From Demequina phytophila (GTDB lineage Bacteria > Actinomycetota > Actinomycetes > Actinomycetales > Demequinaceae), in the NCBI RefSeq assembly GCF_000971135.1, contig NZ_BBLW01000009.1:1-64000 (forward strand): a stretch of DNA of 64,000 bases. The letters are read 5' to 3'. How positions within the stretch are numbered: position 1 is the stretch's first letter; each line of letters starts with the position of its first letter. The notes beneath the pieces are model-generated. The model worked only from the letters and a program-made list of their open reading frames with translations. It did not search any database and was not told the origin of the DNA. This document shows, one piece after another, positions 17,280 through 25,017 of the stretch. A program made the translations under genes and the position numbers.

Positions 17280-17968
17280 TCGGGCACCTCCTCGGGTCGC
17301 GGGTGACCCCAGCCGGCGGCGATCGCGACGAGCGCGGCCGCGAGTACCGGCACGCCGGGCGGCGCGACGGGCGTCAGCGCGAGCGCCAGGAGGGACGATG
17401 CGGCCGCGACCGCCCGCGCACGACGGTGGGCCAGGCGCGGCCACACCAGGGCGAGGAAGGCGGCTGCGGCCGCGGCGTCGAGGCCCCAGTCCGCGGGGTC
17501 GCCGATGCTCGAGCCCAGCAGCGCGCCCAGGAGGGTGATCGCGTTCCAGGCGACGAACACGCCCACGCCGGTCCACCAGAACCCGGCCCGGCGCGCCGGG
17601 GGGTCCTCGGCGGGCTGGGCGAGCGCGACCGCGGTGGACTCGTCGATGGTGACCTGGGCGGCCCACGCCTTGCGCCAGCCGCGCATGGGACGCAGCACCG
17701 GGGCGAGCCCGACGCCGTAGAAGCCGTTGCGGAGCCCCAGGAACGTGGAGGTGGCGACCGCGGCGGCGGCACCGCCGCCGGCGCCGATCACGCCGACGAA
17801 CGCGAACTGCGAGCCGCCCGAGAAGATCAGGAGCGACAGCGCGCAGGTCTGCCACAGGTCGAGCCCCGCCGCGACGGACAGCGCCCCGAAGCTGAGGCCG
17901 TACGCGCCGGTCGCGAGCGACACCGACAGCGCCTGCTGGCGCGTGCGGTCGAGCGTCAGGAGGGCCAC
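17276..17968 (-). CDS. azlC: AzlC-family branched-chain amino acid permease
   Basis: The 230-aa membrane protein has the AzlC signature segments FGALSVAAGL, LLIFSGGSQFAFVGVIGAGG and the LRNGFYG motif, with about five to six helices. Together with AzlD it forms an exporter for branched-chain or related amino acids. The GTG start lies inside the 3' end of the preceding acetyltransferase gene (13-nt overlap), so GNAT-azlC-azlD is one operon. Confidence 0.88.
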   Translation of the reverse strand: MALLTLDRTRQQALSVSLATGAYGLSFGALSVAAGLDLWQTCALSLLIFSGGSQFAFVGVIGAGGGAAAAVATSTFLGLRNGFYGVGLAPVLRPMRGWRKAWAAQVTIDESTAVALAQPAEDPPARRAGFWWTGVGVFVAWNAITLLGALLGSSIGDPADWGLDAAAAAAFLALVWPRLAHRRARAVAAASSLLALALTPVAPPGVPVLAAALVAIAAGWGHPRPEEVPE

Positions 17969-19185
17969 GCGAGCTCCGTGCCGTCGACGTCCGCGAGGCG
18001 GGGGAGAGGCGTCGAGACCAGCGGCTCCCGACCGAGCGCCGAGACGTCCGCGACCCAGTGCTCCATCTCGAGCCCGTCGTCGGTATCGAGCGTGCGCCCT
18101 ACATGGGTGAAGCCCGCACGCCGCGCGACAGCGCCGGAGCGCGGGTTGTCCGGCCGGTGGAGGATCTCCACCGTCTCTGCGGCGGCGTACTGGAGCGCGA
18201 CGCGCGTCAGCGCGAGGACGGCCTCGGTCACCAGCCCGCGTCCCTCGTGCGACGCGGCGATCCAGTAGCCGACCTCGAGCCCCGGACGGTCGTCGAGCGG
18301 GTGAAGGCCCGCGCTCCCCAGGTACTCGCCGCTCGCGCGGTCGAACAGCCCCATGGTGAACTCGACGCCCGCCTCGTGCGCCGTGATGTTCTCCGCGACC
18401 TTCGCCGCGCGCTCCTCGGGCGAGGAGGGGGCGCCCCGCGCCCACGACAGCGAAGCCGCGAGACGGTCACGGTTCGCCTCGATCACCCGGTGGACAACCG
18501 CGGCGTCGTCCGCGCGGAAGCGACGGATCTCCAGGCGCCCCGTCTCGATGACCGCGGGCACGGGCCACACGCGCCAGTCCAGCTCGGTGCCGTCCTCGTC
18601 GCGAAGGACGGGCAGCGGCGTCGACGCGGCGGGCTCGCGGGTCAGCGTGGAGAGGTCCGCGGTCCACACCGCGAGCGCGACGGCGCCACGTGCCTCGATG
18701 CCCCGGCGCTCGAACCCGCAGCGCTCCGCGACCGCGTTCGACCTGCTGTTCGCGGGCTCAGCGTGGATCTCGACCCGCGCCGCTCGCGCGCGCAGGAGCG
18801 CCACGGCCGTGAGCGCGACCACGGCCTCGCTCACGAGCCCCTCGCCCTCGCGGTCCGCGCGGATCCAGTACCCGATCTCGAGCGCGTCGGGGCCCACCCG
18901 CGTGTGCAGCCCCGCGCCTCCCACGAATCCGCCCGTGGCGCGGTCGAACATGCCGAACGAGAAGTCGGTGCCCGCGTCGAACGCCGTGGCGAACTCGGCG
19001 ACCTTGGCCGCGCGCTGCTCGATGGTCTGCGGCTCGAGCGGCGCCCACGGGATGAACGCCAGCAGGTGGTCGATGTTGGCGAGGATCACCCGGTGCATCG
19101 CAGGGACGTCTGCGGCCTCGAGCCGCCGGATCACGAGCCGCTCGGTCTCGATGCGGGCGGGCACGGTCCAGGTCATGGCGTCCAT
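17956..19185 (-). CDS. Tandem two-domain GNAT acetyltransferase (RimJ/RimL type)
   Basis: About 409 aa containing two complete RimJ/RimL-like GNAT domains of similar sequence (about residues 1-195 and 205-400). Each has ETxRLxIRR-type start, GYWIRADREGEGLVSEAV or GYWIAASHEGRGLVTEAV for acetyl-CoA binding, and the SRSNAVAERCGF / PRSGAVARRAGF helix. It looks like an internal duplication and fusion with both acetyl-CoA sites intact. The start is ATG 19185 or 19176; neither has a good ribosome-binding site. It is coupled to azlC. Confidence 0.85.
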   Translation of the reverse strand: MDAMTWTVPARIETERLVIRRLEAADVPAMHRVILANIDHLLAFIPWAPLEPQTIEQRAAKVAEFATAFDAGTDFSFGMFDRATGGFVGGAGLHTRVGPDALEIGYWIRADREGEGLVSEAVVALTAVALLRARAARVEIHAEPANSRSNAVAERCGFERRGIEARGAVALAVWTADLSTLTREPAASTPLPVLRDEDGTELDWRVWPVPAVIETGRLEIRRFRADDAAVVHRVIEANRDRLAASLSWARGAPSSPEERAAKVAENITAHEAGVEFTMGLFDRASGEYLGSAGLHPLDDRPGLEVGYWIAASHEGRGLVTEAVLALTRVALQYAAAETVEILHRPDNPRSGAVARRAGFTHVGRTLDTDDGLEMEHWVADVSALGREPLVSTPLPRLADVDGTELAWPS

Positions 19186-19231
19186 CCTGGCACCGGCCCA
19201 GAGAGCCACCGCGCCGCGACCCGGCACCGTC

Positions 19232-19761: not shown

Positions 19762-20562
19762 TCAGACGGCCACGGGCGCCTTGATGCCCGGGTGGTGCTG
19801 GTAGTTCTCGATGACCACGTCGTCGATGTCGTAGTCGAACAGCGAGTCCTTCTTCTCGAGCCGCAGCGTGGGGTACGGGAACGGCTCGCGCGCGAGCTGC
19901 CGCTCCACCTGCTCGACGTGGTTGGAGTAGATGTGGCAGTCCCCGCCGGTCCACACGAAGTCGCCGACCTCGAGGCCGGTCTGCGCCGCGATCATGTGGG
20001 TGAGCAGCGCGTACGAGGCGATGTTGAACGGGACGCCAAGGAACAGGTCAGCGGAGCGCTGGTACAGCTGGCAGCTGAGCTTCCCGTCCGCGACGTAGAA
20101 CTGGAACAGCGCGTGGCACGGCGCGAGCGCCATCTGCGGGATGTCCGCGACGTTCCACGCCGACACGATGAGGCGGCGCGAGTCGGGGTTGCCGCGGATC
20201 TGCTCGACCAGCTCGGAGATCTGATCGACATGACGGCCGTCCGGCGTGGGCCACGACCGCCACTGGTACCCGTACACCGGGCCGAGCTCGCCGTCCGCGT
20301 CCGCCCACTCGTCCCAGATGGTGATGCCGCGCTCCTGCAACCAGCGCACGTTGGTGTCGCCGCGCAGGAACCACAGCAGCTCGCCCACGATCGAGCGCGT
20401 GTGGACGCGCTTGGTGGTGATGAGCGGGAAGCCCTGTGACAGGTCGTAGCGGAGCTGACGGCCGAAAACCGAGACGGTGCCGGTGCCGGTCCGGTCGCCC
20501 TTGGGGGTGCCGGTCGCCAGCACCTCGCGCAGCAGGTCCTCGTACGGGGTGGGGATGGTCAC
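19762..20562 (-). CDS. thyA: Thymidylate synthase
   Basis: ThyA methylates dUMP to dTMP with methylene-tetrahydrofolate. The 266 aa carry the catalytic-cysteine segment [10 protein letters not shown], the phosphate-binding RRLIVSAWN and the folate-site block [12 protein letters not shown]. The length equals the E. coli enzyme, and the C-terminus PVAV is as expected. folA follows immediately. A classical ThyA alongside no visible ThyX is ordinary for this group. Confidence 0.97.
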
Positions 20563-20616
20563 GGGGTCAAGGGTACGGCGGCGGCCCCGACTCGCCCAGC
20601 AGCCCGCGCCCGAACA

Positions 20617-21204
20617 TCAGCTCGACGCTGCGATGCCCCAGAACGCGTACTTCTCCGTCACGACGTACGCGCCGTTCCTCCGCTCGAACCTCACCCCGAC
20701 GGTGCCGCCGCCGTCGTTACGGATCGGCCATTCGACCAGGATGGTGCGACCCCACTGCGAGTACGACTCCTCGGTGATGTGACCCGCGGTGCCGGCGATC
20801 TCTCGCACCCGCGCGAGCCGCATGCCCTTAGCGATCTGGCGATATTCCGCCTTGGTGACCTTGTCCGCCTCGGAGTCGAGGGGTCCGTCGAGCCAGATCG
20901 CCGACTTGATGACCACCCGCCACACGCCGTCGAAGCGCCTGACGTCGAGGTTGACCACGCCGTAGGGGCTCGTGGTGGGGACCCACCTCATGGTCCGGTA
21001 CTCGATGCCGCCGGCGTAGTAGCTGTTCTCGTGCACGCCCTTGGAGTCGAAGACCGCGCGCGCGGAGGCGAGCGTGTCGCCCAGCTCGATCGCGTCGAAC
21101 TCGGCACGGTCCACCTTGCCGGTGTCGTCAGCCGTTGCCGCGGTGGCGCCCGACAGTGCCAGGGCGACGCCCACGGCCGTCGCGACGATGACCTTCAGTC
21201 TCAT
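20617..21204 (-). CDS. Secreted protein with two tandem BLIP-like repeats
   Basis: The ATG at 21204 gives a clear Sec signal peptide (about 28 residues, cleavage near ATADD) and is preceded by AGAAGGATC. The mature part is about 167 aa in two similar halves. The first begins DRAEFDAIELGDTLASAR and the second TKAEYRQIAKGMRLARVRE; each continues with about 45 residues of beta strands ending in aromatic W/Y-rich sequence. This tandem helix-then-sheet layout and length match beta-lactamase inhibitory protein (BLIP) and related SmpA/BamE-like folds. Sequence identity to BLIP looks low and there are no cysteines, so inhibitor function is only a possibility. Confidence 0.65.
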   Translation of the reverse strand: MRLKVIVATAVGVALALSGATAATADDTGKVDRAEFDAIELGDTLASARAVFDSKGVHENSYYAGGIEYRTMRWVPTTSPYGVVNLDVRRFDGVWRVVIKSAIWLDGPLDSEADKVTKAEYRQIAKGMRLARVREIAGTAGHITEESYSQWGRTILVEWPIRNDGGGTVGVRFERRNGAYVVTEKYAFWGIAASS

Positions 21205-21250
21205 ATCGATCCTTCTCAGAGCGCGTGTGCGCGCGGCTGGTCGGTTCACT

Positions 21251-21267
21251 GGTGTCAGGATGACACC
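21251..21267. promoter_or_regulatory. Perfect palindrome upstream of the secreted BLIP-like gene
   Basis: GGTGTCAGGATGACACC is a 7-bp perfect inverted repeat with a 3-bp centre, about 47 bp before the start codon of the secreted protein. On the minus strand a weak promoter (TTGCGA, 17 bp, CAATGT) lies just upstream of it, so a repressor bound here would block transcription. The binding protein is unknown. Confidence 0.45.
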
Positions 21268-21334
21268 TACTAGGCGCCAACATTGCAGGTAGAAGAAGCA
21301 TTTCGCAAGGGGCGGCGCACCAGTGGCGCACATG

Positions 21335-23032
21335 TCACGGCTCCCGCGCGCGCATCTCTGCGCGGAGCGCGTCCGCCCTCGCGACGCCGAGCCGGACCGA
21401 CTCCATCAGCGTGCCCGTCGCGGCGACGACGTTCGCCGGACCGAGCGCGTCGAGCGCACCCGTTCGCTCGAGCAGGGCCTGAAGCCGTGGCGGCACGCCG
21501 CAGATGACGAGCGCGACACCGTCCGCACGCATCTCCGCGGCACGCCGCCCGAGCATCTTGAGGAAGGTCGCCGACGGCACCCCGAAGGATCCGCGGGCGG
21601 AGACCACCAGCGCCGCGTCGTTCGCGCCCGTCATGTCCGGCCACTCGTCGTCGAGCCGGCCGATCTCGGCGAAGAAGCCATGCCCGCTGTAATGCACCAC
21701 CGTGGTGCGGTGCGACGGCAGCACCGCCGGTGCGTCCCCGATCGACCAGCCGTCGTCCTCGCGCACGAGCTCGACGAGCTCGCCGGCGCGGCTGTTCTGG
21801 ACGGCGGTGAGCAGGATCGACAGCGCCGCACCGATGAAGATGGCCTGCTGCAACGGCAGCGCGGTGGTCGCGACGAAGGTCACCACCATCGCGGCGAGCG
21901 ACGCCGTCGACGTCCGTGCCACCAGCCGGATGTCCGGAATCCGGCCCTCGACGATCTCGGCGCCGACGATGAGCATGAGCCCGCCGATCACCGCCATGGG
22001 GATCTCGCCCGCGACCGGCCCGATCAGGACCACGATGAGCCCGAGCGACAGGCCCGCGAAGATGCCCGACCACCGGGTCCGCGCGCCCGCGCCGGTCGCG
22101 ACGCCGGTCCGGGACAGCGAGCCGCCGGTGGGGAGCGCGCCGAAGAACCCGCCTACGAGGTTCGCCGCGCCCTGCGCCGTGAAGTCCTTCGACGCGTCGG
22201 CGCGGGTGCCGTCGGGGTTCGCGACCGCCGCGCTGATCCCGGCCGCCTGCGCGAGGGCGACGAGCGCGACGGCGATCGCGCCCGTGACGAGCGCGGGGAA
22301 GGCAGCCGTGTCGGGGATGGTGAACGGGGGCAGCGAGCGCGGCACCGCGGCTATGTCGGACACCGTCTCGACGTCGCGCGCGAGGACGAACGCCGCGATG
22401 CTGGCGACGATCAGCGCGACCAGGGTTGCGAGCGCCCGCAGGCGCGTGACCCGGCGCGCCGCGAACCACACGGCGACGGTCCCGAGGGCGACCGCGACCG
22501 TCGGGGCGTGCCAGTCGCCCACGTGGGCGACCGCCTCCACCAGCTTGCCCGCCGTGTTCGACGAGGCGGGCGCATAGCCCGTGGCGTCGGTGATCACGCC
22601 CGCAAGGATCTGAACCGCGATGCCGGTGGTGAAGCCCGTCATGACGGCGGTCGACACGAAGGCCATCACCGCGCCCATGCGCAGCAGGCCCATGATCAGC
22701 ATGACAACGCCCACCAGGACCGTGAGGGTCGCGACCCCGCCGACGTCGCCCGGGTCGAGCCCGGCCGAGGCCATGACGCTTTGCGACGACAGCGCGATCG
22801 CGCTGGTCAACGTGGTGACCATGAGCACCGTGCGGGCGAGCATCGAGCCCACGATGGTGGGAACCACGCCGGACCACAGCCCCAGGGGCGCGGCGAAGCC
22901 GCCGATGCTCGCGTAGGCCATGCCCTCCGGGATGGAGAACAGGCCCGTCACGAAGCCCGAGGACACGTCGCTCCACCTCGGCAGCGTGAAGCGTCGCTTC
23001 GTGTGCGCAGCCGCCGGCTGCCCACTGGCCAT
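21335..23032 (-). CDS. SulP-family anion (sulfate) transporter with STAS domain
   Basis: The 565-aa protein has 10-12 hydrophobic helices in about residues 25-400, including the SulP start FSIPEGMAYASIGGFAAPLGLW and the loop NPDGTRADASKDFTAQGAANLVGGFFGALPTGGSLSRT. A cytoplasmic STAS domain follows (about 430-555). SulP members carry sulfate, bicarbonate or carboxylates. It is divergent from an alkylsulfatase, which favours sulfate; the ion is not provable from sequence. Confidence 0.9.
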   Translation of the reverse strand: MASGQPAAAHTKRRFTLPRWSDVSSGFVTGLFSIPEGMAYASIGGFAAPLGLWSGVVPTIVGSMLARTVLMVTTLTSAIALSSQSVMASAGLDPGDVGGVATLTVLVGVVMLIMGLLRMGAVMAFVSTAVMTGFTTGIAVQILAGVITDATGYAPASSNTAGKLVEAVAHVGDWHAPTVAVALGTVAVWFAARRVTRLRALATLVALIVASIAAFVLARDVETVSDIAAVPRSLPPFTIPDTAAFPALVTGAIAVALVALAQAAGISAAVANPDGTRADASKDFTAQGAANLVGGFFGALPTGGSLSRTGVATGAGARTRWSGIFAGLSLGLIVVLIGPVAGEIPMAVIGGLMLIVGAEIVEGRIPDIRLVARTSTASLAAMVVTFVATTALPLQQAIFIGAALSILLTAVQNSRAGELVELVREDDGWSIGDAPAVLPSHRTTVVHYSGHGFFAEIGRLDDEWPDMTGANDAALVVSARGSFGVPSATFLKMLGRRAAEMRADGVALVICGVPPRLQALLERTGALDALGPANVVAATGTLMESVRLGVARADALRAEMRAREP

Positions 23033-23038
23033 GTCCTC

Positions 23039-23044
23039 ACGCTA
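23039..23044 (-). promoter_or_regulatory. TAGCGT -10 element before the SulP gene
   Basis: On the minus strand TAGCGT lies 6 nt before the ATG, with no ribosome-binding site: another leaderless-type start, in the 110-bp region shared with the divergent alkylsulfatase. Confidence 0.4.
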
Positions 23045-23142
23045 GCGCCGAGCGAGCGACGATGCGAGGGGCCGGTGCACTTGCGCGCGGACCCCCGCGG
23101 GTGAAGGCTGGAGCGTGGGTCCCCTCATCGCCGGAGGCTGCC

Positions 23143-25017
23143 ATGCGCCAGAACGACCCGATACCCGCGATCGAGGAGGCGCACGCGAGGCACCTCGCGA
23201 CGCTCCCATTCGAGGATGAGCGCGACTTCGAGGACGCCGACCGCGGCTTCCTCGGCACGCTCCGAGACCCGGTGATCCGGGACGCCGACGGAAAGGTCGT
23301 GTGGGACGCGTCGACCTACGACTTCATCGAGGGCGAGGCCCCGACCTCCGTGCATCCGAGCCTCTGGCGGCAGTCGACGCTCGTGGCACGCCATGGACTG
23401 TTCGAGGTGGTCGAGGGCCTGTACCAGGTGCGAGGCCTCGACCTGTCCGTGATGTCGCTCATCGAGGGCGACACGGGAGTGATCGTCGTCGATCCGCTGA
23501 TCTCCAAGGAGACCGCGGCCGCCGCGCTCGAGCTCTACCGCGAGCATCGGGGCGACCGGCCGGTGACCGGCATGATCTACACGCACGCGCACCTCGACCA
23601 CTTCGGCGGCGCGCTCGGCATCGTCAGCGCCGAGGAGGCGACCGAGCGCGCGCTGCCGATCATCGTCCCCGAGGCGCTCGTCGGGCACGCGGTCGCCGAG
23701 AACGTGTACGCCGGCACCGCCATGGCGCGCCGTGCGGGCTACATGTACGGCGCTGCGCTCGCACGCGGGCCGCGCGGCCAGGTCGGCGCGGGCCTGGGCC
23801 AGACCACCTCGACCGGGCATCCGGGGATCGTGGTGCCCACCCACGAGGTGACCGCCACCGGGGAGAAGGTCACCGTCGACGGCGTCGAGCTCGAGTTCCA
23901 GATGGCGCCCGGAACCGAGGCGCCGGCGGAGTTCCATTTTCTGGTCCCTCGCTACGCGGCGCTGTGCATGGCGGAGAACGTCACCCACAACCTCCACAAC
24001 CTGCTCACCCTGCGTGGCGCGCTGGTCCGCGACCCGAACCTCTGGGCGCACTACCTCACGGAGGCGATCGAGCTCTTCGGCGAACGCGCGGACGTGATGT
24101 TCGCCTCGCACCACTGGCCCACGTGGGGTCGCGCGCGGCTGATCGAGTACATCGCGATCCAACGCGACCTCTACAAGTACCTCCACGACCAGACCCTGCG
24201 CATGCTCAACAAGGGGATGACCGGCGCGGAGATCGCGGAGACGATGACCTTGCCGCCGGATCTCGAGAAGGTGTGGGGGACGCACGGGTACTACGGGTCG
24301 GTGTCGCACAACGTCAAGGCGATCTACCAGCGGTACATGGGGTGGTTCGACGGCAACCCCGCGCGGCTGTGGCCCCATCCGCCCCAGGCGCTCGCGGAGC
24401 GCTACGTGGCCGCGATCGGCGGCGTCGACAGGGTCGTCGAGCTCGCGCGCGGCGCCTATGACGCGGGTGACCTGCGGTGGGCGGCGACGCTGCTCGACCA
24501 CGCGGTGTTCTCCGCGCCGGACCACGCGGCGGCGCGCGGCCTCTACGCCGACACCCTCGAGCAGCTCGCGTACGGCTCCGAGAACGGCACCTGGCGCAAC
24601 TTCTACCTCTCCGGTGCGACCGAGCTGCGCGAGGGCACCTTCGGCACGCCCACGGCCACGGCCGCACCGGACCTCGTCGTGCAGCTCAGCCCGGAGCAGA
24701 TCTTCGACGCGATCGCGATCACCGTCGACGGCCCGGCCGCGTGGGACCTGGACCTCGCCATGGATGTGTCGCTCGTCGACCTCGACCGCACGTTCCGCGT
24801 CACGCTGCGCCACGGCGTGCTCGTCGCGGAGGAGGAGGCTGCGGGCGGCCGCGACGTGCCGCTGGCGCTCGGGCTCACCAAGGTGAGGCTCCTCGGGCTG
24901 GTGGCGGGAGACCTCGACTCGCCGGGCATCGCGGTCACGGGCGACATCACCGTGCTCCGGCGGTTTCTCGAGGTGCTCGATCCCGGTGACCCCGACTTCG
25001 AGATCGTGCTGCCGTAG
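23143..25017 (+). CDS. Linear primary-alkylsulfatase (SdsA1/BDS1-type metallo-beta-lactamase)
   Basis: These enzymes hydrolyse alkyl sulfates such as dodecyl sulfate to alcohol and sulfate. The 624 aa have the metal-binding motif THAHLDHFGG (about residues 147-156) in an N-terminal metallo-beta-lactamase domain. The alkylsulfatase dimerisation domain follows (about 380-500, starting near YMGWFDGNPARLWPHPP), then a C-terminal SCP2-like domain. The ATG is chosen for its GGAGG ribosome-binding site. No signal peptide is visible, so the enzyme may be cytoplasmic, unlike secreted SdsA1. Confidence 0.9.
   Translation: MRQNDPIPAIEEAHARHLATLPFEDERDFEDADRGFLGTLRDPVIRDADGKVVWDASTYDFIEGEAPTSVHPSLWRQSTLVARHGLFEVVEGLYQVRGLDLSVMSLIEGDTGVIVVDPLISKETAAAALELYREHRGDRPVTGMIYTHAHLDHFGGALGIVSAEEATERALPIIVPEALVGHAVAENVYAGTAMARRAGYMYGAALARGPRGQVGAGLGQTTSTGHPGIVVPTHEVTATGEKVTVDGVELEFQMAPGTEAPAEFHFLVPRYAALCMAENVTHNLHNLLTLRGALVRDPNLWAHYLTEAIELFGERADVMFASHHWPTWGRARLIEYIAIQRDLYKYLHDQTLRMLNKGMTGAEIAETMTLPPDLEKVWGTHGYYGSVSHNVKAIYQRYMGWFDGNPARLWPHPPQALAERYVAAIGGVDRVVELARGAYDAGDLRWAATLLDHAVFSAPDHAAARGLYADTLEQLAYGSENGTWRNFYLSGATELREGTFGTPTATAAPDLVVQLSPEQIFDAIAITVDGPAAWDLDLAMDVSLVDLDRTFRVTLRHGVLVAEEEAAGGRDVPLALGLTKVRLLGLVAGDLDSPGIAVTGDITVLRRFLEVLDPGDPDFEIVLP

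Follow-up and report, generated by a model that had tools for sequence, protein, structure and literature searches.

A secreted two-repeat protein of Demequina phytophila with the predicted fold of the beta-lactamase inhibitory protein BLIP

The gene, its product and its surroundings

The DNA analysed here (the window) is a stretch of 64,000 nucleotides from Demequina phytophila. Its minus strand carries a gene for a putatively secreted protein built of two repeats, the features of which are collected in Table 1. The gene is real, with homologues in other genomes and a paralogue. Its stop codon is located at 20617-20619 and its best start is the ATG at 21204, immediately preceded by AGAAGGA. 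As the homologues and the signal peptide begin at 21204, this ATG was taken as the start instead of position 21333, to which the mechanical open reading frame runs on.

The protein of D. phytophila begins with the signal peptide MRLKVIVATAVGVALALSGATAATA. The alanines at its −3 and −1 positions, A23 and A25, are invariant in 11 of the 11 aligned family members, and residues 1-24 have pLDDT values below 50 in the AlphaFold2 model. A lipobox cysteine is absent from the signal peptide. The export signal is strongly supported, the signal peptide being judged by eye, and the protein is predicted to be secreted and soluble. Cleavage after residue 25 would leave a mature chain of about 170 residues, which contains no cysteine. 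This agrees well with the first-pass annotation, a reading of the bare sequence that had described a signal peptide followed by a mature chain of about 167 residues without cysteines.

Table 1. Features of the gene, its product and its upstream region (positions in the window)
Feature	Position	Strand	Basis
CDS, putatively secreted two-repeat protein with predicted BLIP fold, 195 aa plus stop	20617..21204	minus	ORF and homologues
Signal peptide, residues 1-25, inferred cut after ATA and before DDTGK	21130..21204	minus	by eye, A23/A25, pLDDT
Repeat 1, about residues 28-110 (predicted helices 33-38 and 45-52; predicted strands 57-64, 67-76, 83-91 and 94-103)	20875..21123	minus	model and repeat alignment
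Repeat 2, residues 113-195 (predicted helices 118-122 and 130-137; predicted strands 142-149, 152-161, 168-176 and 179-188)	20620..20868	minus	model and repeat alignment
Turn between strands beta2 and beta3 of repeat 1, residues 77-82 (TTSPYG), at the place of BLIP's Asp49 loop	20959..20976	minus	model and alignments
Imperfect inverted repeat GGTGTCA-N3-TGACACC	21251..21267	none	47-63 nt upstream of the ATG

Upstream of the gene, two arms of 7 bp surround three non-symmetric bases. The first-pass annotation had taken this element for a perfect palindrome of 17 bp and had proposed conditional expression on its strength; with its asymmetric centre the palindrome is imperfect. The pattern is present at one place in the host genome. 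Upstream of the paralogue and of 10 homologues, none of the inverted repeats listed repeats it, and 4 of the 12 upstream regions compared (the window, L007, L009 and L011) contain an exact inverted repeat with arms of at least 7 bp. As the element is single-copy and not conserved, and such arms occur in other upstream regions as well, it provides no evidence of regulation. We therefore rejected it as a regulatory site, and the proposal of conditional expression loses its footing. No sigma-70-type promoter or terminator pattern was found within 20540-21420, and the leader RNA folds little better than shuffled sequences (z −1.29; 22 of 200 shuffles as good).

The gene is located between thyA and a gene for a SulP-type transporter. 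Among the neighbours, thyA and dapA were identified by eye, the SulP transporter, an alkyl sulfatase and a cupin by Pfam. When the frames at five loci were compared by eye, the dapA/cupin-thyA neighbourhood was common to the window, L046 and L048 but not to L047 and L049. In the window, the SulP-family transporter and the alkyl sulfatase (21338-25014) separate the gene from the cupin gene; in D. iriomotensis (L048) it lies, by eye, directly between the dapA/cupin side and thyA. None of the neighbours inspected by eye at these five loci is a convincing partner gene. A single open reading frame at 17959-19227 on the minus strand of the window encodes two tandem GNAT acetyltransferase domains (Pfam Acetyltransf_3 in two stretches).

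Internal repeats, predicted fold and remote homology

Repeats 1 and 2 share 25 identical residues among 80 aligned. Their alignment score of 56 was reached by none of 500 shuffles (mean 12.1, sd 5.8, maximum 41). Both repeats whose starts had been quoted in the first-pass annotation are thus present and alignable. An AlphaFold2 model of the 195 residues, built on an alignment of 11 rows, reached a mean pLDDT of 85.1 and a pTM of 0.76 and consists of two units, each with two helices and four strands. In blocks of ten residues, pLDDT is 93-97 across most of both repeats and 84-88 in the linker and near residues 161-170; it is low in the signal peptide and the C-terminal tail.

Comparison of the model with the PDB by Foldseek yielded 14 matches at E≤0.001, all of them chains of the beta-lactamase inhibitory protein BLIP or of BLIP-I, that is, two proteins represented by many entries. 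Unrelated proteins and BamE follow from E 0.03 on; BLP and the Streptococcus mutans protein 3d4e are absent from the best 50 Foldseek matches listed. VIA-align, run over 995 of Foldseek's best 1000, gave Z-scores of 11.3-11.7 for BLIP, 11.7 for 3d4e, 11.5-11.6 for BLIP-I and 11.4 for BLP. The 16 best rows all belong to these four proteins, with 142-151 residues aligned at an rmsd of 3.4-4.0. After this group comes a gap; the next best row is a BamE domain, matched to one half with Z 8.2, and lower values follow. The moderate Foldseek TM-scores by query (0.49-0.53) and the rmsd values show that the fold is the same but shifted in places, perhaps because the two domains stand at a different angle. 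Judged from the model, the window protein almost certainly has the BLIP fold. The fold, size and two-repeat plan of BLIP that had been recognised in the sequence, at about 20% identity, are thus upheld by the model, by both structural searches and by the family profile described below; compared with BLIP and BamE/SmpA, both predicted halves are BLIP-type and neither has a differing fold. Three phage proteins, other than those taken up below, also match the fold of the model at E≤0.001.

According to the accessible text of Das 2010 (PMC2954215), the BLIP-like superfamily comprises BLIP, SmpA_OmlA, DUF2874, PepSY and DUF3192. Its domain is described there as a short helix, a loop, a long helix and four antiparallel strands, occurring in one to four copies in exported proteins (PMC2954215). 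The predicted structure of the window protein follows this pattern, with two helix-helix-four-strand units and an export signal recognised by eye.

On the sequence level the kinship is far less apparent. Searched alone, the window protein has no match in Pfam at E≤1, and against PDB sequences it gives only a chance-level match that is not BLIP, namely an NTF2-like protein at E 0.068. OsmE (12.3 vs 65 bits), fatty-acid-binding proteins (E around 0.3-0.4) and DUF1513 in one family member (E 0.0064) were likewise judged to be chance. The curated cut-off of PF07467 (BLIP) is not reached by the window protein, nor is that of PF04355 (BamE), for which there is no match. A PF07467 search of the host genome was without a match, the controls of that search being silent too; across the phylum PF07467 matched 2 of 396 genomes, both below the cut-off. 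In the window protein, Pfam and NCBIfam thus fail to recognise the family, which very probably belongs to the BLIP/BamE superfamily.

The family profile is more sensitive. Built from 11 members, it ranked BLIP chains as the best 9 of the 15 PDB sequences listed (E 0.0011-0.0068); these are variants of one protein and count as one independent match, whose best domain has an E of its own of 0.013. Repeat 1 and the beginning of repeat 2 align with BLIP without a shift of register. Among the 11 aligned members, Pfam gave one weak BamE match (0.0022) and one weak BLIP match (0.023). Two relatives act as bridges. L071 (L071:1462-1998, minus strand; genome G1032, from another family of the class) has a signal-like start followed by two repeats, each of which contains a pair of cysteines. 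The family profile (A3, built from 10 rows) matches it at E 5.1e-13, over a stretch (profile 2-172) that takes in the signal peptide, and it exceeds the Pfam cut-off for BLIP with 31.4 vs 26.7 bits. It shares 21% identity with the window protein, and when it is searched alone against the PDB, BLIP reaches only E 0.07 and ranks after an unrelated lipoprotein (E 0.02). Of the two proteins, L071 may be the better BLIP candidate. The second bridge, the four-repeat relative L008 from Demequina, exceeds the Pfam cut-off for BamE (28.6 vs 23.2 bits) with a match that spans 25 residues. Sequence evidence and fold together make it very probable that the window protein is homologous, remotely, to BLIP and BamE.

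Relatives and repeat number

A search with the single protein matched 10 of 149 genomes, host included, all in the host's genus. The relatives in the 9 other Demequina genomes are 31-48% identical to the window protein; the named ones come from D. gelatinilytica, D. silvatica, D. iriomotensis and D. maris (4 loci), and one genome (G020) carries three copies. The paralogue in the host (C11:473277-473828) is 43% identical. In the order, the 11-row profile gave matches at E≤0.001 in 19 of 396 genomes: ten Demequina (G042 weakly), G155 over its full length, six of the genus g42, and G101 and G369 weakly. By eye, the weak matches in G042, G101 and G369 read as N-termini of unrelated proteins. The matches in g42, six large-genome genomes, span about one repeat. 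These g42 proteins (L027-L032, L038-L040 and L043, from genomes of 7.8-9.4 Mb) each have one repeat, a signal-like start and two cysteines; there are several per genome in three of the six genomes, and they match mainly repeat 1 of the profile. Among 296 genomes drawn from the class, 8 match the profile, namely the host, G1032 over most of the profile (L071), G894 and G845 over about one repeat, and four weakly (E 3e-5 to 5e-4).

Repeat number varies within the family. L008:1483-2547 (G031:C2) encodes 355 amino acids in four units. Its repeats 2-4 are mutually 57-63% identical (52/83, 43/76 and 44/76) and 26-39% identical to repeat 1 (32/82, 25/82 and 20/76). Because repeats 2-4 are closer to each other, the additional units were probably gained later than the first duplication. 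The AlphaFold2 model of L008 (mean pLDDT 85.5, pTM 0.69) has four helix-helix-four-strand units and gave 17 PDB matches at E≤0.001, all BLIP, BLIP-I, BLP or 3d4e; porins, which appeared at E 0.005 and weaker, were judged to be chance. L008 also has a DUF3862 match below the cut-off (20.2 vs 25 bits). A further locus, G041:C1:2535875-2536675 (L010, L014), may encode three units in disturbed frames, in a genome listed as 50% complete; sequencing error or decay is a possible cause of the disturbance. Repetition as such is not new, since one to four copies have been reported for DUF2874 in the available text of Das 2010 (PMC2954215). Among the titles and abstract openings listed for open-access papers on BLIP and its relatives, none describes a BLIP-like protein from Demequina.

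Contact residues, possible partners and known systems

The hot spots of BLIP are Asp49 and Phe142, and Asp49 enters the active site of the beta-lactamase (PMC6121496, from the portion available). In HMMER and two MAFFT alignments, Asp49 pairs with Ser79 of the window protein. Across the 11 members this position is occupied by S, S, S, S, S, S, G, N, T, S and R and is acidic in none; in the following column, 3 of 11 members have an acidic residue. Since the stretch from E68 to D87 of the window protein contains no further acidic residue, a small alignment slip would not restore Asp49. Around BLIP's Phe142 loop the window protein is shorter by about 7 residues, and the two MAFFT alignments place the gap differently. 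The BLIP interface residue Lys74 aligns with W104 by HMMER, and BLIP Trp162 with W189 by MAFFT only. A global-mode hhalign comparison (A1 vs BLIP) aligned repeat 2 with BLIP repeat 1 at a probability of 21%, a shift that is possible because the protein is repetitive; it was discarded for the comparison of residues. Conserved among the 11 members are, besides structural glycines, W74 (10/11), W104 (11/11), W159 (11/11), W189 (10/11), K100 (11/11) and K185 (10/11). These tryptophans and lysines recur in each unit as the pairs W74/W159, K100/K185 and W104/W189; two of the positions, W104 and W189, are those aligned with binding residues of BLIP.

In the host genome, PF13354 (class-A-type) gave two weak matches, of 27.2 bits and of 20.7 bits (22.7 with its neighbours), at a cut-off of 22. 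By eye, one appears to be a DacB-like carboxypeptidase next to tilS and the other a penicillin-binding protein (PBP) of the transpeptidase type next to murE. Across Demequina, PF13354 matches occur in 33 of 44 genomes, above the cut-off in 31, but strong ones exist only in G034 and G035 (132.6 and 136.6 bits; next best 32.1), neither of which is among the 10 carriers of the gene. The other Demequina matches are putatively cell-wall enzymes like the two of the host. Three host genes belong to PF00144, a family that also includes class C beta-lactamases, DD-peptidases and esterases. The paralogue is about 8 kb from one of them, possibly by chance (loci L063:33-1025 and G000:C11:473277-473828, the latter being the paralogue).

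The reading implied by the first-pass annotation, inhibition of a beta-lactamase, finds no support in Ser79 at the Asp49 position, the shorter Phe142 region, the lack of cysteines and the weak PF13354 matches, and we rejected BLIP-type inhibition as the main reading. The protein might still inhibit class A enzymes of competitors in the manner of BLIP but through a different contact set. Its fold, export signal and size agree with this; W189 matches a BLIP tryptophan; BLIP-II, of unrelated fold, reaches the same enzyme surface (PMC6121496, in the part accessible); and an inhibitor aimed at other species needs no such enzyme at home. Set against it are the altered contact positions, including Trp in place of Lys74, the near-absence of strong class A matches from the genus, and BLP, a far closer relative of BLIP, which in the same partial source has the BLIP fold and no detectable beta-lactamase inhibition (PMC6121496). 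The BLIP fold alone thus does not predict inhibition, and we consider this activity very improbable. The label "beta-lactamase inhibitor" is not warranted on present evidence; the window protein is probably a distant BLIP relative that binds something else.

PBPs share the fold of serine beta-lactamases. The protein could therefore be a regulator or inhibitor of the PBPs or DD-peptidases of the cell's own wall, as proposed for BLIP-I in Streptomyces exfoliatus. PBP-like genes are present in the host genome by eye, and loss of BLIP-I is reported to change the morphology of Streptomyces (Kang 2000, as cited in the accessible parts of PMC2954215 and PMC10653890). CopD of S. pneumoniae, with two PepSY domains of the BLIP-like superfamily, is reported to control PBP1a and PBP2b; the available text reports, however, no detected interaction between its extracellular domain and PBP transpeptidase domains (PMC10653890). 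Moreover, the gene is accessory within the genus, and its patchy occurrence (10/149 genomes, host included) speaks against a core role in the wall. Inspection by eye revealed no PBP gene within about 8 kb, and the nearest PF13354 match on the contig is 45 kb away. A role in controlling PBPs is thus conceivable but doubtful. A wall- or glycan-binding structural module, in which the tryptophans bind sugar and repeat number tunes avidity, appears unlikely. It would suit the W and K positions conserved in each repeat, the four-repeat L008 and the possible three-repeat protein of G041, and L008 has a CBM13-like match; that match is weak (24.6 vs 30 bits), lies below the cut-off and overlaps the BamE match, and the superfamily members with a known partner are known to bind proteins. 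An immunity or exclusion protein of BamE/BLIP fold, directed against a secreted toxin or phage, is in our view as improbable as class A inhibition. The Bacteroides T6SS immunity protein 9uu1 matches one domain (Z 6.9), phage proteins annotated as immunity or BLIP match at ranks 5 and 8 (E 0.009 and 0.046), and the gene distribution is patchy; a Z below 8 may reflect no more than an arrangement found in many proteins, a function does not follow from a shared fold, and no toxin or phage gene was noted beside the gene among the few neighbours scanned by eye.

We favour, with some confidence, a member of the BLIP/BamE (SmpA_OmlA) superfamily that is secreted in soluble form and acts as a binding protein with two domains, its partner being rather likely a protein. 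That this partner has the PBP fold is possible but not to be expected. After export the two domains would form one crescent, whose concave eight-stranded sheet may clamp a convex part of an extracellular partner and so block or tune it. W74, W104, W159 and W189 may take part in binding, on the face of the sheet that they would line. Binding would not follow BLIP's way, as there is no Asp49 and the Phe142 region is shorter; for the same reason a class A beta-lactamase is an improbable partner. A cell-envelope enzyme or some other exported protein would be the likeliest kind, in line with what has been proposed for BLIP-I and its relatives. The superfamily as a whole has been argued, in the accessible part of Das 2010 (PMC2954215), to act by inhibitory binding of a partner.

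A bolder reading, which we regard as unlikely, is that of an undescribed family of secreted proteins in Demequina and scattered other actinobacteria, mostly cysteine-free and of BLIP fold, that grows by repeats (two, four, perhaps three) and clamps PBPs or other wall enzymes. If true, the module would first have served to regulate the wall, and BLIP would have specialised in inhibiting beta-lactamases only late. BLIP has been studied intensively as a protein-protein inhibitor; its original role is unsettled, and BLIP-like genes have been called very rare in actinobacteria (PMC9146315, in the text available). A sister family lacking BLIP's inhibitory residue, in carriers without a strong class A match, would offer a comparison set for the role of the fold before inhibition. 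It is also a warning that "BLIP fold" should not be annotated as "beta-lactamase inhibitor".

Among known systems, BLIP of Streptomyces clavuligerus (1jtg_B, PF07467) is likewise secreted and has 165 residues in two repeats of two helices and four strands; it aligns with the model of the window protein at Z 11.7, with 20% identity over 149 residues. BLIP has two disulphides, one per domain. Unlike BLIP, the window protein has no cysteine, Ser for Asp49, Trp for Lys74, a Phe142 region about 7 residues shorter and no Pfam BLIP match. BLP of S. clavuligerus (3gmx) is secreted and has the same BLIP fold (Z 11.4); it is 11% identical to the window protein in the structural alignment and, unlike the latter, recognisably related to BLIP by sequence (E 7.5e-15). 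The putative BLIP of S. mutans (3d4e), which we take to be a member of DUF3862, shows the two-repeat BLIP fold with Z 11.7 and 20% identity over 143 residues. BamE/SmpA_OmlA (PF04355) corresponds to one such domain per repeat, with a best Z of 8.2 and an rmsd of 1.9 over 64 residues. BamE is a one-domain outer-membrane lipoprotein of Gram-negatives, whereas the window protein is predicted to have two domains and carries no lipobox cysteine.
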